Positions 3,616-23,175 of a DNA stretch of 36,163 bases are shown piece after piece. The translations under genes were made by a program, and so were the position numbers. Each line of letters opens with the position of its first letter. Positions within the stretch are counted from its first letter, which is position 1. This DNA comes from a virus: the IMG/VR virus record IMGVR_UViG_3300005581_003613, positions 1-36,163 of that record. One strand, given 5' to 3'. The notes under the pieces are model-generated. The model was not told where the DNA came from, did no database searches, and saw only the letters and a program-made list of their open reading frames with translations.

Positions 3616-3643
3616 GCATTTCACACCAAAGAAGCGCAAATGA
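3602..3643 (+). pseudogene. Possible remnant of a HEHFTPKK-tailed gene
   Basis: A short frame here reads MQKHEHFTPKKRK and stops. The only other place I see that ending is the C-terminus of the tagged protein at 6691-6951 (HEHEHFTPKKKGM). Its stop overlaps the ATG at 3640 by ATGA, so ribosomes finishing it could feed the next gene. I read it as the tail of a lost or recombined gene, or a mini-gene kept for coupling. Confidence 0.35.
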
Positions 3644-4011
3644 ATTTAAATCCACAGCAGTTTAAGTTCATCGCTAAGCCTCTAGACAACGAGACTACTA
3701 GTCATCAGTTACATGACAAGACTGGCAATGTTGTCGCATACGCTGACATCCATCATCCAGAGGGAGATGAAGCCGTCTATGTAAACTGGCTTAAGAGTCA
3801 CGAAGAGGGCAAGGGACACGCTCAAAATGTTATGAAGCACGTGTATGATTCATACCCTGACAAGGACATCCATTGGCAAAACCGTATAGGACCTGCCTCA
3901 GAGCATCTCTACGAGAAGTTTGGTGCAAGCGATGAGCACGGTGATCGCACTGCAGGTGATGCCGATAATGGCGAATGGGATGAAAACGGCAACTTTAGGG
4001 AAGGGTTCTAA
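3640..4011 (+). CDS. NLNPQQF-tagged GNAT-like acetyltransferase
   Basis: It starts MNLNPQQFKFIA, a variant of the shared N-terminal peptide. The rest (about 30-105) fits a compact GNAT: strands with GNVVAYADIHH and AVYVNWLKS, the acetyl-CoA loop in EEGKGHAQNVMKHVYD (about residues 64-79), and ASEHLYEKFGA, the usual C-terminal helix of GNATs. The tail is acidic. GNATs acetylate amines on proteins, small molecules or tRNA; the target here is unknown. At 123 residues it is short for the family. TAATG overlap with the next gene. Confidence 0.6.
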   Translation: MNLNPQQFKFIAKPLDNETTSHQLHDKTGNVVAYADIHHPEGDEAVYVNWLKSHEEGKGHAQNVMKHVYDSYPDKDIHWQNRIGPASEHLYEKFGASDEHGDRTAGDADNGEWDENGNFREGF

Positions 4012-4349
4012 TGGCTGCAGAAGATAACTTGTCTAAACCACTCTTCCATGGAACAACAGAGAACATCAAAGTTGGAGATGTCATCAAGCCTACACCTCAA
4101 GTAATCAGTGGGCTCACAGAGGCGTATGCAACACAGAACTATAATGAAGCGTACAACTATGCAGGCGCTCGTGCATTAAACCGCAATGCCCTCTTTGGCT
4201 CTGTCTACGAGGTAGAGCCATTAGAAAAAGACACGACTATTAAAAAGAAGAAGTCATTACTAGGCGATCAACGACAAAAACCTGTACGCACATCTGAACA
4301 AGGGTTTCGTGTAAAGCGTCATGTTGGATGGGCAAAGTCACACGCATGA
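4011..4349 (+). CDS. NLS-tagged Arr-like ADP-ribosyltransferase
   Basis: After MAAEDNLSKPLF comes a domain resembling the rifampin ADP-ribosyltransferase Arr over most of its length: FHGT (H13) followed by KVGDVIKP, an AYATQNYNEAYNYAG segment, FGSVYEVEPLE, and a late KPVRTSEQGFRVKRHVGW matching the Arr ending with its R-S-x-x-P-x-R-V-V pattern. Arr transfers ADP-ribose from NAD to a hydroxyl of rifamycins. In a phage the more likely target is a host protein or nucleic acid. H13 corresponds to the conserved NAD-contacting His. Length (112 aa) is slightly under Arr. Overlaps join it to both neighbours, so it belongs to a translationally coupled effector chain. Confidence 0.7.
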   Translation: MAAEDNLSKPLFHGTTENIKVGDVIKPTPQVISGLTEAYATQNYNEAYNYAGARALNRNALFGSVYEVEPLEKDTTIKKKKSLLGDQRQKPVRTSEQGFRVKRHVGWAKSHA

Positions 4350-4741
4350 AGCAGACACCTAGAGAACCAGATCACGATCCTAAAGAGCCGAGAAATCTGT
4401 CGGGCGTTCAGTTTCGGTTCATTCACGCTGGTGCGGCTAAACAGCACCCTAGGATTCATACTATGTACGCTAATGACGCAAATGGTCGTTACATAGGTCA
4501 CTTGGACTGGAACAAGCGAAGTGGTCAGATTGACAACATCAACGTGATCGGTCGCATGCAAGGTCTTGGTGTTGCAACCTCTCTGTATGAGAAGGCAACT
4601 AAACTTGCATCTGACACTGGGATCAAGTCGCCACAACACTCAACCTTTAGAACTGACAAGGGCGATGCCTGGGCGCACAAGGTAGGTGGCAACGTCCCGC
4701 CTCGTAAGGCAGAGCCAGAAGACGAAGAAGAACAAGCATGA
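4346..4741 (+). CDS. NLSGVQF-tagged GNAT acetyltransferase
   Basis: I choose ATG 4346, in the ATGA overlap with the previous stop, over an in-frame codon at 4328. About 15 residues precede RNLSGVQFRFIHAGA, so the shared peptide is slightly internal here. The GNAT core is clear: GRYIGHLDWN strand, IDNINVIGRMQGLGVATSLYEKA with the acetyl-CoA-binding R-M-Q-G-L-G-V-A loop (about 70-77), then a helix. The C-terminus is strongly acidic (EPEDEEEQA). It is the second GNAT in four genes; substrates are unknown. Confidence 0.7.
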   Translation: MKQTPREPDHDPKEPRNLSGVQFRFIHAGAAKQHPRIHTMYANDANGRYIGHLDWNKRSGQIDNINVIGRMQGLGVATSLYEKATKLASDTGIKSPQHSTFRTDKGDAWAHKVGGNVPPRKAEPEDEEEQA

Positions 4742-6952: not shown

Positions 6953-7696
6953 ATGACAGAAAAAGGAACAGCAGCAGCAATTATTGAGATTGCTAAAAAA
7001 GAAGTTGGGACTATTGAAGGTCCAAAAGATAACGAAACAAAGTACGGCGCTTTTACAAAGGCTAACTACCTCGCATGGTGCGGAAGTTATGTAATGTGGT
7101 GTGCTGCACAAGCGGGCGTCAAAATCCCTAACACTGTATCTACAGTGGCAGGCGCAACAGCCTTTAAAAAAATGGGTACTTGGTTTGATGCTGATTGTGG
7201 TCAATCACCACAACCAGGAGATATTCTGTATTTTGATTTTCCAGGAGATGGCGTCAACCGAATTTCTCACGTAGGTATCTGCACAGGTATTGAGGCTGAC
7301 GGTGTTGTTTCAACTTTAGAAGGCAACACTAGCGGGAAGAAAAGAGGAGACCAGAGAAACGGCGGGGAGGTGTGCGCTCAGACTCGTGCGTACAAGCCAA
7401 ACAAGAAGAAGGTTCTTGTCTCAATTGTTGGTTGGGGACGTCCTAACTACAAGGGTAATGAAGTAACCGCTAAGGTACCTGTTACAAAAGCCCCAAAGTT
7501 TCCAGGACAGATCAAACCAGGCGCACAGGGTGAAGCGGTCAAGATTGTTCAAGAGGCCCTAGGATTGGCTACAGACGGCGACTACGGCCCAGCCACAAAG
7601 AAGGCAGTTGTGGCATTTCAGGACAATCACGACGTAGTGGACTCAAACGGCATCATTGGCCCTAAAACATGGGCAGAACTGGTCAAACTCCTCTAA
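6953..7696 (+). CDS. Endolysin: CHAP amidase/peptidase with PG-binding domain
   Basis: The 247-residue protein has an N-terminal CHAP/NlpC-type domain with catalytic Cys in WCGSYVMW (C43), His in ISHVGI (H106) and a polar third residue in LEGNTSG (E123/N125). A linker leads to a C-terminal peptidoglycan-binding domain (about 182-247) with PGAQGEAVKIVQEALG, DGDYGPATKKAVVAFQ and GIIGPKTWAELV. It would cut host peptidoglycan at the end of infection. No signal peptide is seen, so export needs a holin; candidates are at 10360 and 13680. A strong terminator follows, so it ends a transcript. Confidence 0.92.
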   Translation: MTEKGTAAAIIEIAKKEVGTIEGPKDNETKYGAFTKANYLAWCGSYVMWCAAQAGVKIPNTVSTVAGATAFKKMGTWFDADCGQSPQPGDILYFDFPGDGVNRISHVGICTGIEADGVVSTLEGNTSGKKRGDQRNGGEVCAQTRAYKPNKKKVLVSIVGWGRPNYKGNEVTAKVPVTKAPKFPGQIKPGAQGEAVKIVQEALGLATDGDYGPATKKAVVAFQDNHDVVDSNGIIGPKTWAELVKLL

Positions 7697-7710: not shown

Positions 7711-7765
7711 CTTAAGACCCCCCAGGTTGCCCTAATGGTATCCTTGGGGGGTTCTTTACTTAAGG
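7711..7765 (+). terminator. Rho-independent terminator after endolysin
   Basis: The arms ACCCCCCA (7717-7724) and TGGGGGGT (7745-7752) pair perfectly, with two further G-C pairs inside and an outer CTTAAG repeated on both sides. A T-rich run (TTCTTTACTT) follows. The outer CTTAAG pairing makes the structure look partly bidirectional. Confidence 0.8.
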
Positions 7766-7772
7766 GGTGGAT

Positions 7773-8321
7773 ATGACAACGATTGTAGCGGTGCAATACG
7801 AAGACAAAGTTGTTTTTGCTGCAGATAATCAGGTAACTGGTGATGATGGCCGCATTTACCGCCATCCTAGAATGGAAAAGATTACAGAACGCAACGGTTA
7901 CTTAATTGCTGGCTCTGGAGAAGTTGCGCCATGCGATATTGCACAACACATATGGAATCCGCCAAAACCAACTGTAAAAGATATGCAGGATGTTTATCAC
8001 TTTATGATTGTTAAAGTAATGCCTTCTTTAAGAAAATGCCTTATAGACAATGGTTATGACTTTGCAGAGGGCAAAGGCGATGGAAAAGTTGATGGTAATC
8101 GGTTTAATTTTCTTGTAGCGGTGGGTGGCGAGGTATTTGATGTTGCCGATGATTGCTCTCTCTGTATGAGTGATGATGGGATCTACGGAGTAGGTTCTGG
8201 TTCTTCTTATGCTATTGGGGCTCTTCATGCAGGTGCTAAGCCGTTAAAGGCTCTAGCCGTTGCTGAGAAATTAGATATGAACACTTCAGGGCCGTTTTTA
8301 GTCAAAGAGCAATATAAGTAA
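7773..8321 (+). CDS. HslV/proteasome-like Ntn hydrolase
   Basis: I start at ATG 7773, 5 nt after AAGGGG; a GTG at 7767 is less well placed. The mature-type N-terminus MTTIVAVQYEDKVVFAADNQVT matches HslV and proteasome beta subunits, where Thr2 becomes the catalytic nucleophile. Later YLIAGSGEVA and YGVGSGSSYAIGALHAGA match the family's Gly-rich strands and the helix near the active site. Length (about 182) equals HslV. No HslU or other ATPase gene is in the window. Possible roles are host protein turnover, capsid maturation or self-standing peptidase; the first two are guesses. Confidence 0.8.
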   Translation: MTTIVAVQYEDKVVFAADNQVTGDDGRIYRHPRMEKITERNGYLIAGSGEVAPCDIAQHIWNPPKPTVKDMQDVYHFMIVKVMPSLRKCLIDNGYDFAEGKGDGKVDGNRFNFLVAVGGEVFDVADDCSLCMSDDGIYGVGSGSSYAIGALHAGAKPLKALAVAEKLDMNTSGPFLVKEQYK

Positions 8322-8445: not shown

Positions 8446-8718
8446 ATGTCAAAGACACAAGATAAAAGACGCAAAAACAAAATTGATCATGCTGAGTTTC
8501 TTTGGGAAGAAGCGCAGATGAAAGCCGCTGCCATGCAGCAGATGCTTGATATTGCTGTTGGCGAGTTTGAAACGCACCAATCAGAGTTAGACCCTGAAAT
8601 TGTGGCAAAAATCCAAGAACAGATTGCTATTCGTAAAGAAGACATCAAGACTTACCTGATGAGCGAAAAAGACAAGTTTCTTGAACGAGTCCGAGTTGAC
8701 GTCGACAAAACCCAGTAA
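8446..8718 (+). CDS. Coiled-coil hypothetical protein (90 aa)
   Basis: The protein is almost entirely charged helix (RRKNKIDHAEFLWEEAQ, MQQMLDIAVGEFETHQ, VAKIQEQIAIRKEDIK), suggesting a dimeric coiled coil. No signal peptide or catalytic motif is visible. Position before the large metalloprotein suggests a partner or small structural role, but nothing fixes it. Confidence 0.65.
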   Translation: MSKTQDKRRKNKIDHAEFLWEEAQMKAAAMQQMLDIAVGEFETHQSELDPEIVAKIQEQIAIRKEDIKTYLMSEKDKFLERVRVDVDKTQ

Positions 8719-8736: not shown

Positions 8737-10314
8737 ATGCCTCTAGGAAAACAGTTTCAAAACACATTCCACACAGACGAACGTGGAAACATAATTTTTC
8801 ATACTGACGCTGCTGATATCCCTGACCAAACACCAGATGAACACGGTGCTGTAAACGCTGCTAAGGAACTTCATCCACATCAACCTGTGACAAGCGAAAA
8901 ACCTCATCAAGGAGTTTCTTATCAAGGAATGCTTTTTTCCCCGCACGCATTTACTGGGTTAAAAACTGATCCTACAATTTCTGAAGAACAACGTCGCAGT
9001 ACGATTCAAACGGCTTTGCATCTTGGAGCCGACGAATACTCAAAGAATATTAAAGGAGAGTTCCCAGCGCGAGAGACTGCTCGTGTAGAGCAAAGTCGTA
9101 TGGCAATTACAGATGCAGCACACGAAACTGCTATTCCTACACATATGTTTAAAGAAAATATTAATGTTAAAGCAGTTGCATCAACAAAACTTGGCAGTGC
9201 AACAGGTGGAGATTTTAGCGCTATGAGGAACAGGATTCGCACCCGTGTACGTGCAGACAGTGAAAAAGTTGGTGAAGAAACCTACATGGACCAAAGGTAC
9301 GAACGTGGTGAAGGATTTTTGTCTAATCCTACACATGAAAAAGATAATGAAAAAATTTCTTATGCATTAGGTGCTACTGGAACCCTGCATACTTCACTAG
9401 GAAAAATTCCTTCTGAGCATCTTTTTCCTGGTAGAGGTGAAGACACCGACGAGTACTCAACGCACAACATAAAGGTCCACGTCGGTTACACCGACAAGGG
9501 ACGTAGAAAATCAGCAATAGTTCATGCACGACGTCCAAAAGTTGCTGTCGGTGAACCAGTCGAAAGAACTCGCCCTATTTACCAAGATAAAATGGTTTCT
9601 TCTCAAGACACCATTGCTCACGAAATTGGGCACTCTATGGATACAACGTTAAGAATTGGGGCATTACGTAATCTAAATGGTGCTGACACTGTTCATGAGG
9701 CAATAGCCGATGGAGTATCAGATCGTTTTGTAAGACATGGGCACGATTACGAAAGAGCACTAGAACCCTCTCCTGAGCGTGCGAGAGAGATTAAAAACGA
9801 GGGCTATGGATTTGGCAGTAAAGATGTAGCAGGAACAGACATTAAAAAAGCCTTGTACGCAGCAGTCCGTACCCACGTTGCTATGGGGGACAAAAACTTT
9901 CAAGATATTTTAGATCGTAAGGCTCTGTACAAACAGGCTCCGTTGCCTACAGAACGCCGACAAAGTGCTAATATAAGTTGGGATAGAGAGGCTTCACACG
10001 AGGAGCAAACGCATCACGCTAATCATTTACTTTTAGGCCACCTGTACACCACCCACTCTCACGTGCGTGAATCACTTTCAAACCTTGGTCTTGCTCACAT
10101 TGGGGAAAATGCTGCCAATCATTACAGAACTCACATTACTGATGCGGGAAATGTTCCTTTGCCAGGGTTTGAGCACCACGGTTACGCAGACGCACCTGCG
10201 CGAAGTGAGTGGGCAAAAAATAATGAAAAAATCATGGCAGCACTTGAGGCCAGTGCATCAGAAATCCTGCCAGTGCGTCAGAGATCGCAACCCACGGAGC
10301 CTAAACTCAGGTAA
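8737..10314 (+). CDS. Large gluzincin-like zinc metalloprotein
   Basis: The 525-residue protein holds HEIGHSM (H295, E296, H299), the zincin motif, and VHEAIADGVSDRF 22 residues on, where E321 would be the third zinc ligand as in thermolysin-type gluzincins. The N-terminal 290 residues are polar and unrecognised, with a possible ART-like piece ending in IKVHVGYTDKGRR. The C-terminal 150 are helical and His-rich. There is no signal peptide. In phages such proteins can be injected or head-associated proteases, or toxins. No inhibitor gene is evident. I am confident of the zinc site, not of the role. Confidence 0.65.
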   Translation: MPLGKQFQNTFHTDERGNIIFHTDAADIPDQTPDEHGAVNAAKELHPHQPVTSEKPHQGVSYQGMLFSPHAFTGLKTDPTISEEQRRSTIQTALHLGADEYSKNIKGEFPARETARVEQSRMAITDAAHETAIPTHMFKENINVKAVASTKLGSATGGDFSAMRNRIRTRVRADSEKVGEETYMDQRYERGEGFLSNPTHEKDNEKISYALGATGTLHTSLGKIPSEHLFPGRGEDTDEYSTHNIKVHVGYTDKGRRKSAIVHARRPKVAVGEPVERTRPIYQDKMVSSQDTIAHEIGHSMDTTLRIGALRNLNGADTVHEAIADGVSDRFVRHGHDYERALEPSPERAREIKNEGYGFGSKDVAGTDIKKALYAAVRTHVAMGDKNFQDILDRKALYKQAPLPTERRQSANISWDREASHEEQTHHANHLLLGHLYTTHSHVRESLSNLGLAHIGENAANHYRTHITDAGNVPLPGFEHHGYADAPARSEWAKNNEKIMAALEASASEILPVRQRSQPTEPKLR

Positions 10315-10359
10315 ACTGGTACTACATTGAGGTGGGCTTTACACAGCCGAGGGGTTGAC

Positions 10360-10695
10360 ATGAAAAGTATAAACAATGTTCTTATGCGTATTGTTGCAGT
10401 TTTTGCAGCAAGCGGTCTTGGAGTAATTGGTGCTGGCGCAATTGCGGGTATCTCGGTTGCAAAAGCAATGTTAGTAGCAGGAATGACTGCCGTAGCAGCA
10501 GTAGTTGAGAAGTTGGCTCGTGCATTTATGGACGACGGAAAACTTACACTTGACGAAATTAACGCAGCATTCTCAGCAGTTGATACAAAGGCTAAGACAG
10601 TTGCTGACGTTGCAGTAGAAGAGCGTCGTGCAGCAGATAAGTCTGCAGCATCAAAGTCAGCGGCTGTCTCAAACGACGATCCAGACTACAACTAA
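10360..10695 (+). CDS. Holin-like small membrane protein
   Basis: I start at ATG 10360, 5 nt after GAGGGG; an in-frame TTG at 10327 lacks this. The 111-residue product has a long apolar, Ala/Gly-rich N-terminal segment (about 7-45) that can make one or two membrane helices. A soluble part follows with DDGKLTLDEINAAFSAVD, a pattern seen in putative holins of actinobacterial phages, and then an Ala/Lys-rich tail. It would fit as the holin for the endolysin at 6953, though four genes apart. It is convergent with, and overlaps, the minus-strand gene. Confidence 0.55.
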   Translation: MKSINNVLMRIVAVFAASGLGVIGAGAIAGISVAKAMLVAGMTAVAAVVEKLARAFMDDGKLTLDEINAAFSAVDTKAKTVADVAVEERRAADKSAASKSAAVSNDDPDYN

Positions 10696-11805: not shown

Positions 11806-13680
11806 TTGAAAGCATTGCGTAAATTCGCAGCATTATCTGTCATAACATACGCAGCATTTTTTCCGTTACTATTTCCAACACCTGCATCAGCAGCAGAAGG
11901 CTTGACTGCCCAGGTTCACAACGTGCTGGGACAAAATGGCTCTCCTTACATACCGCAGGGAGATACCGCAACAGTAACAACAAATGTATCTAACATTGAC
12001 TTTCAATGGGGTAGTGGCAGTGTCCTTGGTGGTCCATCAGAAGATGTCATTGTAAGATTTACTGGGTCTATACGCAGTAACACAACTCAAGACATATCAT
12101 TTTTAGCAACAGCAGACGACGGTACAAGGCTGTACATTGATGGAGTTTTAGTAACAGATGACTGGGTTGACAAAGGTGGTGGGGGAACAATCTCTTCTCC
12201 AGTACCCTTTACAGCAGGAATCCCAAAGACCATAGAGTTAATGTATTATGAGAATGGTGGTGGTGCCTGGGTTCAATTACTGTGGGATCAATCTGGATCA
12301 ATGCAGGTTATTCCAACAGAAGCCTTCACTTCACAAGCAGCCCCAGTTGTTAAAACTATTGGTCCCCCAAGAAATTTAACTATAGCGAGTAGCGATACAT
12401 CAACAGTGTTAACTTGGGAAGCACCAGACACTGGAAACACACAGCCAGAAAGATATGCAATAAGTTTTAACTGTTCTGGGTGCAATGGTTGGGGGATTGC
12501 CACTGGAAATGTTGGCGGACCAAATTCTTTAAATACAACAATAACAATTGACCATTCCTTGCTAGATGGCCTTCGCCCTGCAGGAACAGTGTGGTCATTT
12601 CATATTAGATCAGATAACGATACGTTAGCGCTTTACTCTGAAAATTCAAATGTTGTTACTGGGTCTACGTATGTAGCACCAACACCTACACCTACTCCAA
12701 CGCCAACACCTACTCCAACGCCAACACCTACTCCAACGCCAACACCTACTCCAACGGCGACCGTTGAGCCTCAGCCCACTCCGACTCCCACACCCACACC
12801 AGAACCAACGCCCCAGCCAACACCAACGGCGACACCAACACCAACACCAACACCAACACCAACACCAACCCCAGAACCAAATCCATCTCCTACTCCTTCT
12901 CCCACTCCAACGGTAGTTCCAGTTGAGCCCACCCCGACTCCAGAACCTCAACCTTCTCCTCAGCCAACACCAACGCCTGAGCCAACTCCTGAGCCAACTC
13001 CTGAGCCAACTCCTGAGCCAACTCCTGAGCCAACTCCTGATCCGTCTCCTGAACCAAGTGTGACTCCAGACCCTGAGCCAACGCCTGAACCTGAGCCATC
13101 ACCAGACCCAACACCTGAACCTGAACCTGAGCCAACTCCTGAACCTTCTCCTGAGCCAACGCCAGAACCCGAACCAACTCCTGAACCTGAGCCATCTCCT
13201 GAGCCATCTCCTGAGCCATCTGAACCTCCAATTGTAGAAGAAGAATCTACTGTAGCAGAAGAGGTAGAAGAAGCAGTAGCAGATGCTTTGGCAGATGGAG
13301 TAGTTACTGAAGCAGAAAAAGAAATTATTGCTGACGCGTTAGTTGCAACCCTTGCTCCAGGTGAGGCTCTTACTGCCGCAGAAATTGCAGATGCTGGAAT
13401 TACTTACGCAGATCTTCCTGCAGAGACCCCTGTGGAAGTTCGTACTGACGAAAACGGCGAGGCAATTGTTATTACTGCAGAAGTTGCGGATGCATTAACG
13501 CTTGTTGAAAATCCCGCAGATCTTTTGGGCGCTGTTTTTTCAGACCCAGAAAAGGCTCTTCTTGCCTTGTTTAGCGTTGGAGCCGATATGTCTCCAACTG
13601 AAAGAGAAGAATCACAGCAAGTAGTTGTTGCCGCAATCATCGTGGGAACAATCGCAACCCTATCCATAAGGAGAATGTAA
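11806..13680 (+). CDS. Secreted PA14-FN3-(PT)n membrane-anchored surface protein
   Basis: TTG start, supported by GAGGGG 5 nt upstream. The 624-residue protein has a Sec signal peptide (about 1-29, cleavage after ASA). A PA14-type carbohydrate-binding domain follows (about 30-180, with [16 protein letters not shown]). Next are an FN3-like domain (about 185-286), about 185 residues of PT, PEPT and PSPEP repeats (about 291-475), an acidic helical region, and a C-terminal hydrophobic helix (about 606-619) ending IRRM. This is the build of a bacterial cell-surface protein: an anchor, a wall-spanning Pro-Thr stalk and a lectin-like head. In a phage it may be displayed on the infected cell to block superinfection or cause adhesion. 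There is no LPxTG motif. Confidence 0.8.
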
Positions 13681-14922: not shown

Positions 14923-15165
14923 ATGAAGTTAATTCGCAAGTTCGCGATGCAGGGACATGCTGTACCATCGGGAGTGCACAGTCCTAGAGGACCGTTTCCG
15001 CCTGAAGTTTTAGCCCAACCTCGGATGGATTACGGCGATCAACACTCGGATTCCTTACACGTTGGATTAGATGATGTACGCTTCTTCAAATGCAGGGCTT
15101 GCGAAGAAGTACTTTTAGAGACTGAACTAACCAATCATGATTGTGAGGAAATAAATGGCTACTAA
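14923..15165 (+). CDS. Hypothetical protein with C-terminal zinc site (80 aa)
   Basis: Starts directly after the previous stop. The N-terminal half is Pro/Gly-rich. The C-terminus has FFKCRACEEVLLETELTNHDC, giving a C-x2-C then H-x-C set typical of a small zinc knuckle. It overlaps the next, structural-looking gene by 11 bp. Confidence 0.6.
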   Translation: MKLIRKFAMQGHAVPSGVHSPRGPFPPEVLAQPRMDYGDQHSDSLHVGLDDVRFFKCRACEEVLLETELTNHDCEEINGY

Positions 15166-15856
15166 TAACAACGGTAATCTTCTAGATACCGCAGGTGAAG
15201 TTGCAATTGACTTTGTATGGGGAAATTTCCCTATTCAACCAAACGACGCTCGTCCAGATGCAGCAAGTGCAACTCTTTCGACAACAGTCGCTACAAGAGT
15301 AGCAGGTCGTCTAGACCCAGCAGCAGATAACCACATCATCGCTCTTTCAGGATGGAATGGTTTTCCACTTTACAACCCAGATACAGCAGGTGAAGATGTA
15401 GTTGGTGCAACCGACTATGTACTCGTACCTTCAGTACTCGGTCTTACAACAACAGAGGCAGTTGACGCAATGAAGGATGCTTCATTGACAGTTACAACCG
15501 CAGCAGGAGCAGTAAACGCTGCTTCAACAATCACAGCAGTATCACGTACAGGTACAGCAGCAACAATCACCTCAACAGGTGCTGGTGCTAAGTACCCAGT
15601 AGGTACAAAGATCACTGTTGCATCTCTTGCGTCTCCAAATACTGACCTAAACGGTACTTGGACAGTCACAGCAGTTGCTACAAACTCAGTGTCGTTCACA
15701 ACTACAACTACAGGAGCCCTGTCAACATCAGGACTTACAGTTGCTGGTTTGACTGGCGCAGCAGCAACAATCAAGACTCAATCTCTTGCAGCAGGTGCAA
15801 ACTCAATTGCTCCAGCAGCAGCAGTAACAGTTACACCTTGGGCAACAGCGTCATAA
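15155..15856 (+). CDS. PASTA-like structural protein with inserted beta domain
   Basis: The 233-residue protein begins with a region of about 85 residues (IDFVWGNFPIQPNDAR). A PASTA-like start follows, VPSVLGLTTTEAVDAMKDASL (about 90-110), and its expected closing strands come only at the end (IKTQSLAAGANSIAPAAAVTVTPWA). Between them sits a Thr/Ala-rich beta domain with YPVGTKITVASL and LNGTWTVTAVATNSVSF. PASTA domains bind peptidoglycan stem peptides. A domain inserted inside one is unusual. It lies upstream of the terminase and is probably a virion decoration or head protein. Confidence 0.6.
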   Translation: MATNNNGNLLDTAGEVAIDFVWGNFPIQPNDARPDAASATLSTTVATRVAGRLDPAADNHIIALSGWNGFPLYNPDTAGEDVVGATDYVLVPSVLGLTTTEAVDAMKDASLTVTTAAGAVNAASTITAVSRTGTAATITSTGAGAKYPVGTKITVASLASPNTDLNGTWTVTAVATNSVSFTTTTTGALSTSGLTVAGLTGAAATIKTQSLAAGANSIAPAAAVTVTPWATAS

Positions 15857-19108: not shown

Positions 19109-19354
19109 ATGAAGAAACCCGCTAACCCTAAGTTGTATGCAATGATCGTTGCACAAGCACGGGCTAAGTATTCTTCGTACCCAAATCCTGGCGCATCAGC
19201 GTGGGTCCATAAGAAGTACGTTCAATCTGGTGGACAGTTTATTGAGACCACTGAAGCAACACGTCGTGCAGGTATGGAAAAGAAAAAAATAGACGCAAAG
19301 AAGCGCAAACACCTTGAAGAGAAAAAAAACGATAAGGATAAAGGCAAGAAGTAA
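19109..19354 (+). CDS. DUF5872-like protein (81 aa)
   Basis: GGAGGAG lies 5 nt upstream. The first 50 residues, with KPANPKLYAMIVAQARAKYSSYPNPGASAWVHKKYVQSGG cut across two helices, match the DUF5872 pattern: K-P-x-N-P, Y/F-x-x-Y-P and A-W-x-x-K-x-Y. The C-terminus is a run of Lys/Glu/Asp. Such proteins are frequent next to structural genes in large environmental phages; function is unknown. TAATG overlap with the portal gene. Confidence 0.6.
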   Translation: MKKPANPKLYAMIVAQARAKYSSYPNPGASAWVHKKYVQSGGQFIETTEATRRAGMEKKKIDAKKRKHLEEKKNDKDKGKK

Positions 19355-21090
19355 TGTCATTTCTTGATTTTAGTCCTCCCTCGTATAGAGCGGCTTCCTC
19401 TGACTTAACGATCTCTATTTCGCCGTTAGGGTTAGTAGAACTTGCGGATGAAGAGTTTGAAGTACACGGTCCACGCCTAAACCGTTATTCATTGAACTGG
19501 GCAATGTACCTTGGCCATCACTGGGGTTACCGCCGTGAACAAGGCGAAATGCAGATTGCGGTTAATTACTACCGTGCATTTAATGATTATCTTTCACGTT
19601 TTACATTTGGTAACGGTGTGCACTTCCGTTCACCAAAGGCTACAGAAGCAATTGTTCCAGACCGCTTAGAGCGTATTTGGGAAGTAGACAACGACAAAAT
19701 GCGTGTCCTTCTTGAAATAGGTCAACAGGGCGGAATTACAGGCGACGTATTCATTAAGGTTGCTTACGAAGAGCCTTGGACAGACTCTGCTGGACACTTC
19801 CACCCTGGTCGTGTTCGCTTACTTCCAATGAACTCTTCTTTTTGTTTCCCTGAGTTCCACCCTCACGATCGCTCACGCCTGTTGCGTTTTAAACAGAAAT
19901 ATCGTTTCTGGGGAACATCCTTAGAAGGTACGCGACAAGTATTTACTTACACTGAAATTCTTACAGACGATGTAATTGAAGAGTACGTTAACGATGAGTT
20001 GATTGACTCTCGTCCAAATCCACTTGGGTTAATTCCTGTGGTGCACATTCCAAATGTGCCAGTATCTGGTTCTCCATGGGGTCTCTCCGACGCGCATGAC
20101 ATCATCACTATCAACCGTGCATACAACGAAATTAGCACTGATGTCGCTGACATCATTAACTACCACGCATCACCTGTAACAGTAATCGTGGGTGCTAAAG
20201 CCTCTAACTTAGAAAAAGGCGCTAAGAAGGTTTGGGGCGGTCTTCCAAAAGATGCTCAAGTCTTCAACTTAGAAGGCGGTGCACAAGGTATCGAAGGAGC
20301 CTTGAAGTACCTAGAACTTTTAAAGCGCTCAATGCATGAAGTAATGAACATCCCAGAAACCGCACTGGGGCAAGTTCAAGCAATTTCAAATACTTCTGGT
20401 GTTGCTCTTTCTATTCAGTATCAGCCATTGATGAACCGCTATTCACAAAAGGTTGCTCAATACGGTAAGGGCATTGAACAGGTAAACCAGTTAGCCTTAC
20501 GTACTTTGTTTCTAAAAGAACCAGAAACAATGCTTTACAACCCTGATGAGGACGGCCCAATTAAAGAGGGTCAGTATCCACAGTTGGATCCAAACGACCC
20601 TATTTCTTATCAGAACTACGCACACTTCCCACAACCTTTGCCACTAGACAAGTTAATTGCTCTTAATGAGATTCAAACCAAGTTAGGTATGGGACTTGAG
20701 TCTAAAGAAGGCGCACTTCGCACTCTTGGAGAAGAATTCCCTGAAGAAAAACTTGAAGAAATTAGAGCAGAACTGATTGCCGATGCTGAAGCAGACGGCG
20801 CTTTGCAACTTGTTAAGATTCAAATTCAAAAGGCAATTATGGATATGACTGGCATGATGCCAGGTCCTGACGGAACCTCAGCCATCCCAATGCAGCCAAC
20901 CCAACTTGGCGATGGAGACATCATGGGAGACGGAATTGACGGCGCTCCAACGCCTGACAACATAGAGAACCCTGAAAACCAAGCCTCTCAGGGAATGGCT
21001 CAAGAAGCCGAAGCAGGTATAAGAAACAAACTTGTCACTGATGCCTATGGAACGAAACTTCCTCAAAGGAGATCAGTCGACAAGGAATAA
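19354..21090 (+). CDS. Portal protein
   Basis: The 578-residue length, position between terminase and scaffold/capsid genes, and features such as LNWAMYLGHHWGYRREQGE near the N-terminus, the central ITINRAYNEISTDVADIINYHASP and the following MNIPETALGQVQAISNTSGVA (the family's long stem/wing helix region) identify the dodecameric portal through which DNA is packaged. The C-terminal 80 residues are acidic, Met/Pro-rich and probably disordered. It starts in a TAATG overlap. A short hairpin follows the stop. Confidence 0.88.
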   Translation: MSFLDFSPPSYRAASSDLTISISPLGLVELADEEFEVHGPRLNRYSLNWAMYLGHHWGYRREQGEMQIAVNYYRAFNDYLSRFTFGNGVHFRSPKATEAIVPDRLERIWEVDNDKMRVLLEIGQQGGITGDVFIKVAYEEPWTDSAGHFHPGRVRLLPMNSSFCFPEFHPHDRSRLLRFKQKYRFWGTSLEGTRQVFTYTEILTDDVIEEYVNDELIDSRPNPLGLIPVVHIPNVPVSGSPWGLSDAHDIITINRAYNEISTDVADIINYHASPVTVIVGAKASNLEKGAKKVWGGLPKDAQVFNLEGGAQGIEGALKYLELLKRSMHEVMNIPETALGQVQAISNTSGVALSIQYQPLMNRYSQKVAQYGKGIEQVNQLALRTLFLKEPETMLYNPDEDGPIKEGQYPQLDPNDPISYQNYAHFPQPLPLDKLIALNEIQTKLGMGLESKEGALRTLGEEFPEEKLEEIRAELIADAEADGALQLVKIQIQKAIMDMTGMMPGPDGTSAIPMQPTQLGDGDIMGDGIDGAPTPDNIENPENQASQGMAQEAEAGIRNKLVTDAYGTKLPQRRSVDKE

Positions 21091-22008: not shown

Positions 22009-22047
22009 TCCCTCACAACCAACCCACTAAGAAAGGACTTGACCTAC

Positions 22048-23175
22048 ATGGCAAGTGCAATTACAGGTACTGGGCAACTCGCAGGAGCCCCAACCGCTTA
22101 TTCAGGTTCAAACTCATCTTTGAACCAAGCAATTCAAACAATCTGGTCGAAGGAAATTCTCTTCCAGGCAATGCCAATTCTTCGCTTCGAACAGTTTGCT
22201 GTTAAGAAGACAGAACTTGGAGTTGCTCCTGGTCTACGCGTTAACTTCCTCCGTTACAAGAACTTTGCTGTCGACCCATCACCTCTTACAGAAGGTGTGC
22301 GTATGACAACATCTGCACTCACAGCAGAGCAGATTGCAATCACAGTTGCAGAACACGGCTACGCAGTAGCAGTTTCTGAACTACTCCTAAACGCATCATT
22401 CGATGACGTTATGGCATCTGCTTCACGCCTTCTCGGTCGCCACATGGCGCAGTACCTTGACATCCAAGCACGTAACACACTTTCTGCAGCAACTTCTGCA
22501 GTATTTGGTTACGACCGCACAGGTGTACAGGGCGTCAACGACTGGTACAACGAAGGAACAGTAGCGACAGCAATTAGCGACCTTGATGGTGCGTTCAAGT
22601 TGTCAACAGGTGCTGTTAAGGATGCGGCTCTTACCCTTGCTGGTAAGAACATCCCTCGCTTAGGTGAGACTTACGTAATGTTCGTACACCCAAAGCAGTC
22701 ACGTGACATTCGTTCAAACCCAGAGTTTATCGAAGTTACAAAGTACGCAGCACCAGGAAACTTCATGCTAGGTGAAATCGGTCGTTTGTACGACGTAGTA
22801 TTCATCGAAACAACACAGGTTCGTTTGCTTGCTGCTTCAGGTTCATACACAACATCAACACTTGTTGGTGCTCCAGCAACTGCAGGAACAGTTCCTGTTA
22901 AGTCTAACACTGCTCCAGGTAGTGGTGGAAACCCAGAGTCTGCAGATTACACTGCAGAAGCAGGTTACCTAACATCCGCAACTGGTAACTCAGCAGATGT
23001 TTACGAATCAATCATGATTGGTGACAACGCATTTGGTCACGCAATCAGCCTTCCAGTTGAACTACGTGACGGTGGCGTTCTTGACTTCGGTCGTGAGCAC
23101 GCTCTTGCATGGTACGCAATCTGGGGTCTCGGTGTAATCACCGACCAGGCTATCGTCAAGGTTTACACAAACTAA
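22048..23175 (+). CDS. Major capsid protein, N4-gp56 type (HK97 fold)
   Basis: I start at ATG 22048, with AAAGGA 10 nt upstream; an in-frame TTG at 22039 is too close to that site. The 375-residue protein matches the N4-gp56 capsid family: an N-terminal region with LNQAIQTIWSKEILFQAMP, then FLRYKNFAVDPSPLTEGVR and ITVAEHGYAVAVSELLL, a His/Arg-rich helix, and a late VFIETTQVRLL strand. Codon use is strongly biased to C-ending codons compared with neighbours, as expected for the most abundant virion protein. A GC-rich hairpin follows the stop. Confidence 0.92.
   Translation: MASAITGTGQLAGAPTAYSGSNSSLNQAIQTIWSKEILFQAMPILRFEQFAVKKTELGVAPGLRVNFLRYKNFAVDPSPLTEGVRMTTSALTAEQIAITVAEHGYAVAVSELLLNASFDDVMASASRLLGRHMAQYLDIQARNTLSAATSAVFGYDRTGVQGVNDWYNEGTVATAISDLDGAFKLSTGAVKDAALTLAGKNIPRLGETYVMFVHPKQSRDIRSNPEFIEVTKYAAPGNFMLGEIGRLYDVVFIETTQVRLLAASGSYTTSTLVGAPATAGTVPVKSNTAPGSGGNPESADYTAEAGYLTSATGNSADVYESIMIGDNAFGHAISLPVELRDGGVLDFGREHALAWYAIWGLGVITDQAIVKVYTN

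Follow-up and report, generated by a model that had tools for sequence, protein, structure and literature searches.

A predicted unfoldase-independent proteasome homolog encoded beside the endolysin of a likely actinobacterial phage

What does a proteasome-type hydrolase do among the late genes of a phage, and does it need an unfoldase? The question is raised by a 182-residue protein encoded in a 36 kb virus record from IMG/VR (IMGVR_UViG_3300005581_003613), the whole 36,163-nucleotide stretch of which is called the window here; longer relatives of the record extend up to 94–98 kb. The capsid protein and terminase of the window are ~61–63% and ~52% identical, respectively, to proteins of BRock-type Streptomyces phages, and judging from these identities this freshwater phage likely has an actinobacterial host. 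That a phage can carry a proteasome homolog without its ATPase has been known since 2021, when Fuchs, Alva and Lupas (PMC8665760) described 22 new proteasome homologs, PPH and AAH among the phage-borne ones, with neither a co-occurring AAA+ protein nor an informative gene context. In the same work, AAH was found in no Actinobacteria-specific phage (PMC8665760). The features of the window on which the argument draws are as follows.

7773–8321, plus strand: gene for a proteasome-like (group I) threonine hydrolase of 182 residues (profile matches, predicted fold)
7762–7767, plus strand: Shine-Dalgarno sequence AAGGGG, 5 nt 5' of the ATG (read from the sequence)
7776–7778, plus strand: codon for Thr2, presumed catalytic Thr1 once Met is removed (67/67 relatives)
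7824–7826, plus strand: codon for Asp18, equivalent to proteasome Asp17 (67/67 relatives)
7878–7880, plus strand: codon for Lys36, equivalent to proteasome Lys33 (67/67 relatives)
7917–7919, plus strand: codon for Gly49, equivalent to the oxyanion-hole Gly47 (67/67 relatives)
8049–8102, plus strand: Gly-rich, low-confidence loop, residues 93–110, from helix H2 to strand S7, at the pore-loop position (AlphaFold2 model)
8193–8213, plus strand: GSGSSYA motif, residues 141–147, with G141 and G143 invariant (alignment of relatives)
8274–8285, plus strand: Asp168 (Asp166 equivalent) to Thr171 (alignment of 67 relatives)
6953–7696, plus strand: endolysin (CHAP and peptidoglycan-binding domains), directly 5' of the proteasome-like gene (domain matches)
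8446–8718, plus strand: 90-residue conserved neighbor of the proteasome-like gene (kept in relatives)
10327–10695, plus strand: 122-residue holin candidate (two hydrophobic stretches and position; downstream in relatives)

The proteasome-like gene at 7773–8321 is real and goes beyond a chance match. In the list of open reading frames its product begins MTTIVAVQY. An in-frame GTG at 7767 was considered as the start and rejected, given that relatives do not conserve it and that the Shine-Dalgarno sequence runs into it; with one relative starting at a GTG and reading VTTIV, this identifies Met1-Thr2 as the true start. The first-pass annotation had seen an MTTIV start with an N-terminal threonine, and that reading of a proteasome-superfamily threonine hydrolase is borne out: Thr2, Thr3, Asp18, Lys36 and Gly49 are invariant in all 67 aligned relatives. 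Loss of the Lys and Asp partners of the active site had been set beforehand as the result that would overturn the idea, and both are intact; the GSGSSYA strand it had singled out is also present. Pairwise dN/dS values of 0.05–0.18 against 14 relatives, several with saturated dS, show purifying selection on the gene. The position of Asp168 is less constant, with D in 40/67 relatives and N in 19/67, and Asn, Thr or Ser together in 27/67, which counts to some degree against the peptidase reading; position 171 holds T or S throughout (67/67).

Profile searches place the protein in the proteasome superfamily and outside HslV in the strict sense. It matches Pfam Proteasome (PF00227) at 7.4e-6, above the gathering score, and over residues 1–176 it matches phrog_1040, "peptidase HslV family", at 5.4e-27 in PHROGs, a wide annotation category that also captures the protein of a sister clade (clade B, below). 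Against the NCBIfam HslV models it scores only 26.3 bits where TIGR03692 requires 157.75, and 26.7 bits against 137 for NF003964. The earlier assignment to HslV thus does not hold in its strict form, the equivalog cut-off being missed by ~130 bits. A PDB profile search with a query built from ten relatives returned BPH, the betaproteobacterial proteasome homolog (5ovs, 5ovu), at 5e-11 and 1e-10, followed by HslV at 1.5e-7 and then proteasome beta chains.

An AlphaFold2 model, built from an alignment of 67 relatives from the window and viral contigs, has a mean pLDDT of 91.7 and a pTM of 0.88, and a Foldseek search of the PDB with it again puts BPH at the top (8e-10) and HslV next, with Anbu only further down the list. 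The VIA-align Z values are ~18 to BPH, ~17–18 to HslV and ~17 to proteasome beta5, so near to one another that the fold alone cannot separate the three. The protein has the proteasome fold, an N-terminal threonine and the equivalents of Asp17, Lys33 and Gly47 that define the proteasome family. The model contains both H1 and H2, the helices seen in ring-forming members, and lacks a helical insertion at S3/S4. These features argue against a non-protease that would put the N-terminal threonine chemistry to another use, such as a ligase of the connectase type or an amidohydrolase; connectase does show that the same fold can serve as a monomeric ligase, and such a function is very improbable here.

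The most distinctive part of the model is the 18-residue loop 93–110, which connects helix 74–92 to strand 111–117 and is the sole low-confidence stretch (lowest in the block 101–110, mean pLDDT 60). BPH shares this long H2–S7 pore loop as well as the N-terminal threonine and the Asp17 and Lys33 equivalents, and like the window protein it is without a known unfoldase partner. The two are only ~20% identical, and while the pore loop of BPH is highly acidic, that of the window protein is Gly-rich and of mixed charge (4 acidic and 3 basic of 18 residues), a difference that counts against the BPH-like reading. BPH forms a tetradecameric double ring, and a ring in the window protein is predicted by analogy. 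HslV resembles the window protein in fold, catalytic residues and length; it differs in having a short linker in place of the flexible loop and in having HslU as a partner, which the window does not encode.

The protein is a group I proteasome homolog of the BPH/AAH/PPH kind, and stands nearer to BPH, AAH and PPH than to HslV proper. AAH and PPH are group I homologs in phages and bacteria for which no AAA+ partner was found (PMC8665760), and the window protein is 29–32% identical to rhizobial and Streptomyces plasmid proteins of this kind. Those labels were assigned by taxon, however, and the rhizobial and Streptomyces proteins fall in a separate clade; PPH proteins are also shorter, at ~140 residues and without H2.

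A phylogeny against HslV, Anbu and proteasome beta subunits had been proposed at the outset. In a tree of 47 rows, the window's clade (clade A) and sister clade B are joined at 99/94; with clade C and two other actinophage proteins added, the group has support of 91/90. The separate clade (100/98) holds the rhizobial, Streptomyces plasmid, Moorella phage, D'Alembert and T5-like proteins. BPH (87/56, weak support) and HslV (91/78, from a single row on a long branch) lie outside the A/B/C grouping. Of the proposed comparisons, the tree covers that with HslV. Its deep part consists of long branches whose order is uncertain.

A scan of viral sequences confirmed at least 589 relatives. Cultured carriers include Arthrobacter phage Hum25 and Microbacterium phage LeeroyJenkins. 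When the genome_contigs set was scanned with the family alignment under strict patterns, 24 pattern hits yielded no confirmed relative, which weakly hints that the clade is restricted to phages. A tblastn search of plasmids with BPH gave no match. Separately, the rhizobial relatives sit in a nif cluster, flanked by nifQ on one side and iron-sulfur/nifS genes on the other (L312:5001–5546 and L317:2001–2546), a setting for which a literature search found no report.

The absence of an unfoldase gene, which the first-pass annotation had pointed out, was confirmed for the window, and related records were searched as well. There is no PF00004 AAA match anywhere in the window and no AAA_2 match over the cut-off among 20 records, many of them fragments. 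Across the searchable sequence there is no dedicated HslU/ClpX-type unfoldase, with none in the window and none clear in the longer relatives. An AAA gene of the relatives was considered as a possible partner but dismissed: its best score is to AAA_5 (8.7e-21), of the MoxR/CobS type, it lies ~11–12 kb off on the opposite strand, and records that lack the proteasome-like gene have AAA matches too. PADLOC gave no match.

Characterised HslV and 20S rings use AAA+ unfoldases for folded substrates, and with no dedicated ATPase in the window it could be supposed that the protein is a catalytic ring whose ATP-dependent degradation relies on a borrowed host unfoldase (HslU, Mpa/ARC or a Clp ATPase). 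Mpa and ARC bind the 20S proteasome through its alpha ring. The window protein is a beta-type subunit, which makes the earlier suggestion of borrowing Mpa/ARC unlikely. BPH, the nearest characterised relative, has no known unfoldase either. HslV is not marked for Actinobacteria (PMC8665760, Table 1), and the host therefore probably lacks HslU as well. Taken overall, there is only a small chance that a host ATPase is borrowed. The suggestion that the enzyme works alone is still the best reading, as predicted by analogy with BPH. BPH binds epoxomicin by the proteasome mechanism and has no known unfoldase partner (PMC5777263). Its authors propose a specialised substrate range, with no physiological BPH substrate reported there (PMC5777263), and by extension the activity of the window protein may be narrow too.

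The genomic setting places the gene among late genes, next to those for lysis. In most relatives compared, the order endolysin, proteasome homolog, 90-residue protein and holin candidate is kept. Among 96 clade A loci compared, the endolysin is directly upstream in 78 of the 92 with room there, usually 70–90 bp away; eight more have an endolysin match at another place in the locus. This synteny mostly reflects shared descent and does not amount to 78 independent events. The conserved order could point to a lysis-linked regulator that times lysis by cleaving the holin, endolysin or antiholin. However, in clade B the gene keeps company with the portal, the gene lies elsewhere in clade C, D'Alembert and T5-like phages, and three clade A relatives keep an endolysin match without the gene. 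A dedicated role in lysis timing is accordingly improbable.

Those three absences come from loci found through a late gene of the window (15155–15856) in which the endolysin is visible: the proteasome-like gene is present in 21/24 and absent in 3/24. Two more phages found in this way carry a more distant subtype (E ~1e-36 to 1e-40), which in one of them adjoins that late gene instead. A further phage, G005, whose capsid protein is 92% identical to that of the window, has the endolysin region and no proteasome-like gene in 77 kb. The gene is accessory, and from the absences together with the distant subtypes it appears to have been gained more than once. At one locus (L473:9376–9942), a distant subtype adjoins a homolog of the 15155–15856 gene in a phage whose terminase is 81% identical to the window's.

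Other parts of the window vary among relatives as well. A 525-residue protein encoded at 8737–10314, with a HEIGHS zinc-protease-like motif and a weak Reprolysin_3 match, has no homolog in the relatives compared and is a probable cargo insertion between the 90-residue gene and the holin candidate. Three small adjacent open reading frames at 3640–4741 recur as relatives in related phages, where their order differs; one has a weak match to an Arr-type ADP-ribosyltransferase (E 0.03), another a weak match to a GNAT protein (E 0.001), and the remaining one has none. At 11806–13680, a 624-residue protein carries a long Pro-Thr-rich repeat, and its relatives vary in length.

Clade B, found in ct2KA10-like phages, presents a different late-gene setting. 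The gene lies directly 3' of the portal in 75/78 loci, typically ~20 bp away. Among 70 close relatives of the clade B portal, found through the portal itself and with room downstream, the gene is adjacent in 60 and absent in 10, and in these 10 the portal is followed directly by the next genes. The ct2KA10-like, portal-adjacent setting (L037:20001–20537) is not mentioned in PMC8665760.

Head-maturation proteases are usually encoded at this post-portal position, which is the best support for the suggestion, made in the first pass, that the protein matures the capsid; it would trim scaffold or capsid protein in the manner of the ClpP-like and S78 proteases of other phages. The accompanying claim that a classical prohead protease is lacking also stands: no S78, ClpP or S49 match was found in the window or in one clade B record searched. 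Between portal (19354–21090) and capsid (22039–23175), the window encodes only a 261-residue charged protein with no family match, scaffold-like by composition and place. Several observations stand on the other side. In clade A the gene is 9–14 kb from the head genes and adjoins the endolysin, the window's capsid protein has no long N-terminal extension relative to its Streptomyces phage homologs, and both G005 and the 10 clade B portal relatives do without the gene. LeeroyJenkins has its own annotated capsid maturation protease besides its proteasome relative, and DSL-LC01 has an S78 match besides its own. Head maturation is therefore unlikely as the general function and unlikely for the window phage, for which the suggestion is disfavored; in clade B, where the gene adjoins the portal, it is less improbable.

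In other carriers the neighboring genes do not resemble late genes, which counts against a late role throughout the family. It lies beside WhiB in DSL-LC01, beside thyX in Pumpernickel, near thymidylate synthase in a T5-like phage and upstream of the terminase in LeeroyJenkins. No one partner or process is common to all these settings.

The explanation favored here, with moderate confidence, is that the gene encodes an accessory, late-expressed, unfoldase-independent threonine peptidase of the BPH-like kind. Once the methionine aminopeptidase of the host had taken off Met1, the exposed Thr2 would form the catalytic triad with Asp18 and Lys36. By analogy with BPH, the subunits would assemble into a closed ring barrel, with access to its interior set by the long H2–S7 loop in place of an AAA+ cap, and unfolded or specific short substrates may be cut without ATP. 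Probably expressed late and encoded beside the endolysin, the enzyme would help certain phages at some late step of infection, useful without being essential.

A bolder proposal, which we consider unlikely though worth stating, is that the phage-only subfamily forms a dedicated late-infection or virion-morphogenesis protease, ATP-free and self-compartmentalising, whose clade A members would act on lysis proteins and whose clade B members would act on portal or internal virion proteins. If true, it would be the first proteasome-type enzyme with a role in phage assembly or lysis. The sequences of phage proteasome homologs have been known since 2021 with no function assigned. What is added here is a clade that one strict scan did not retrieve from bacterial genomes, two late-gene contexts (endolysin or portal), examples of phages without the gene, and its occurrence in probable actinophages. 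The two contexts together with the clean absences make function testable, and these phages offer small, apparently unfoldase-free proteasome-type enzymes for study.
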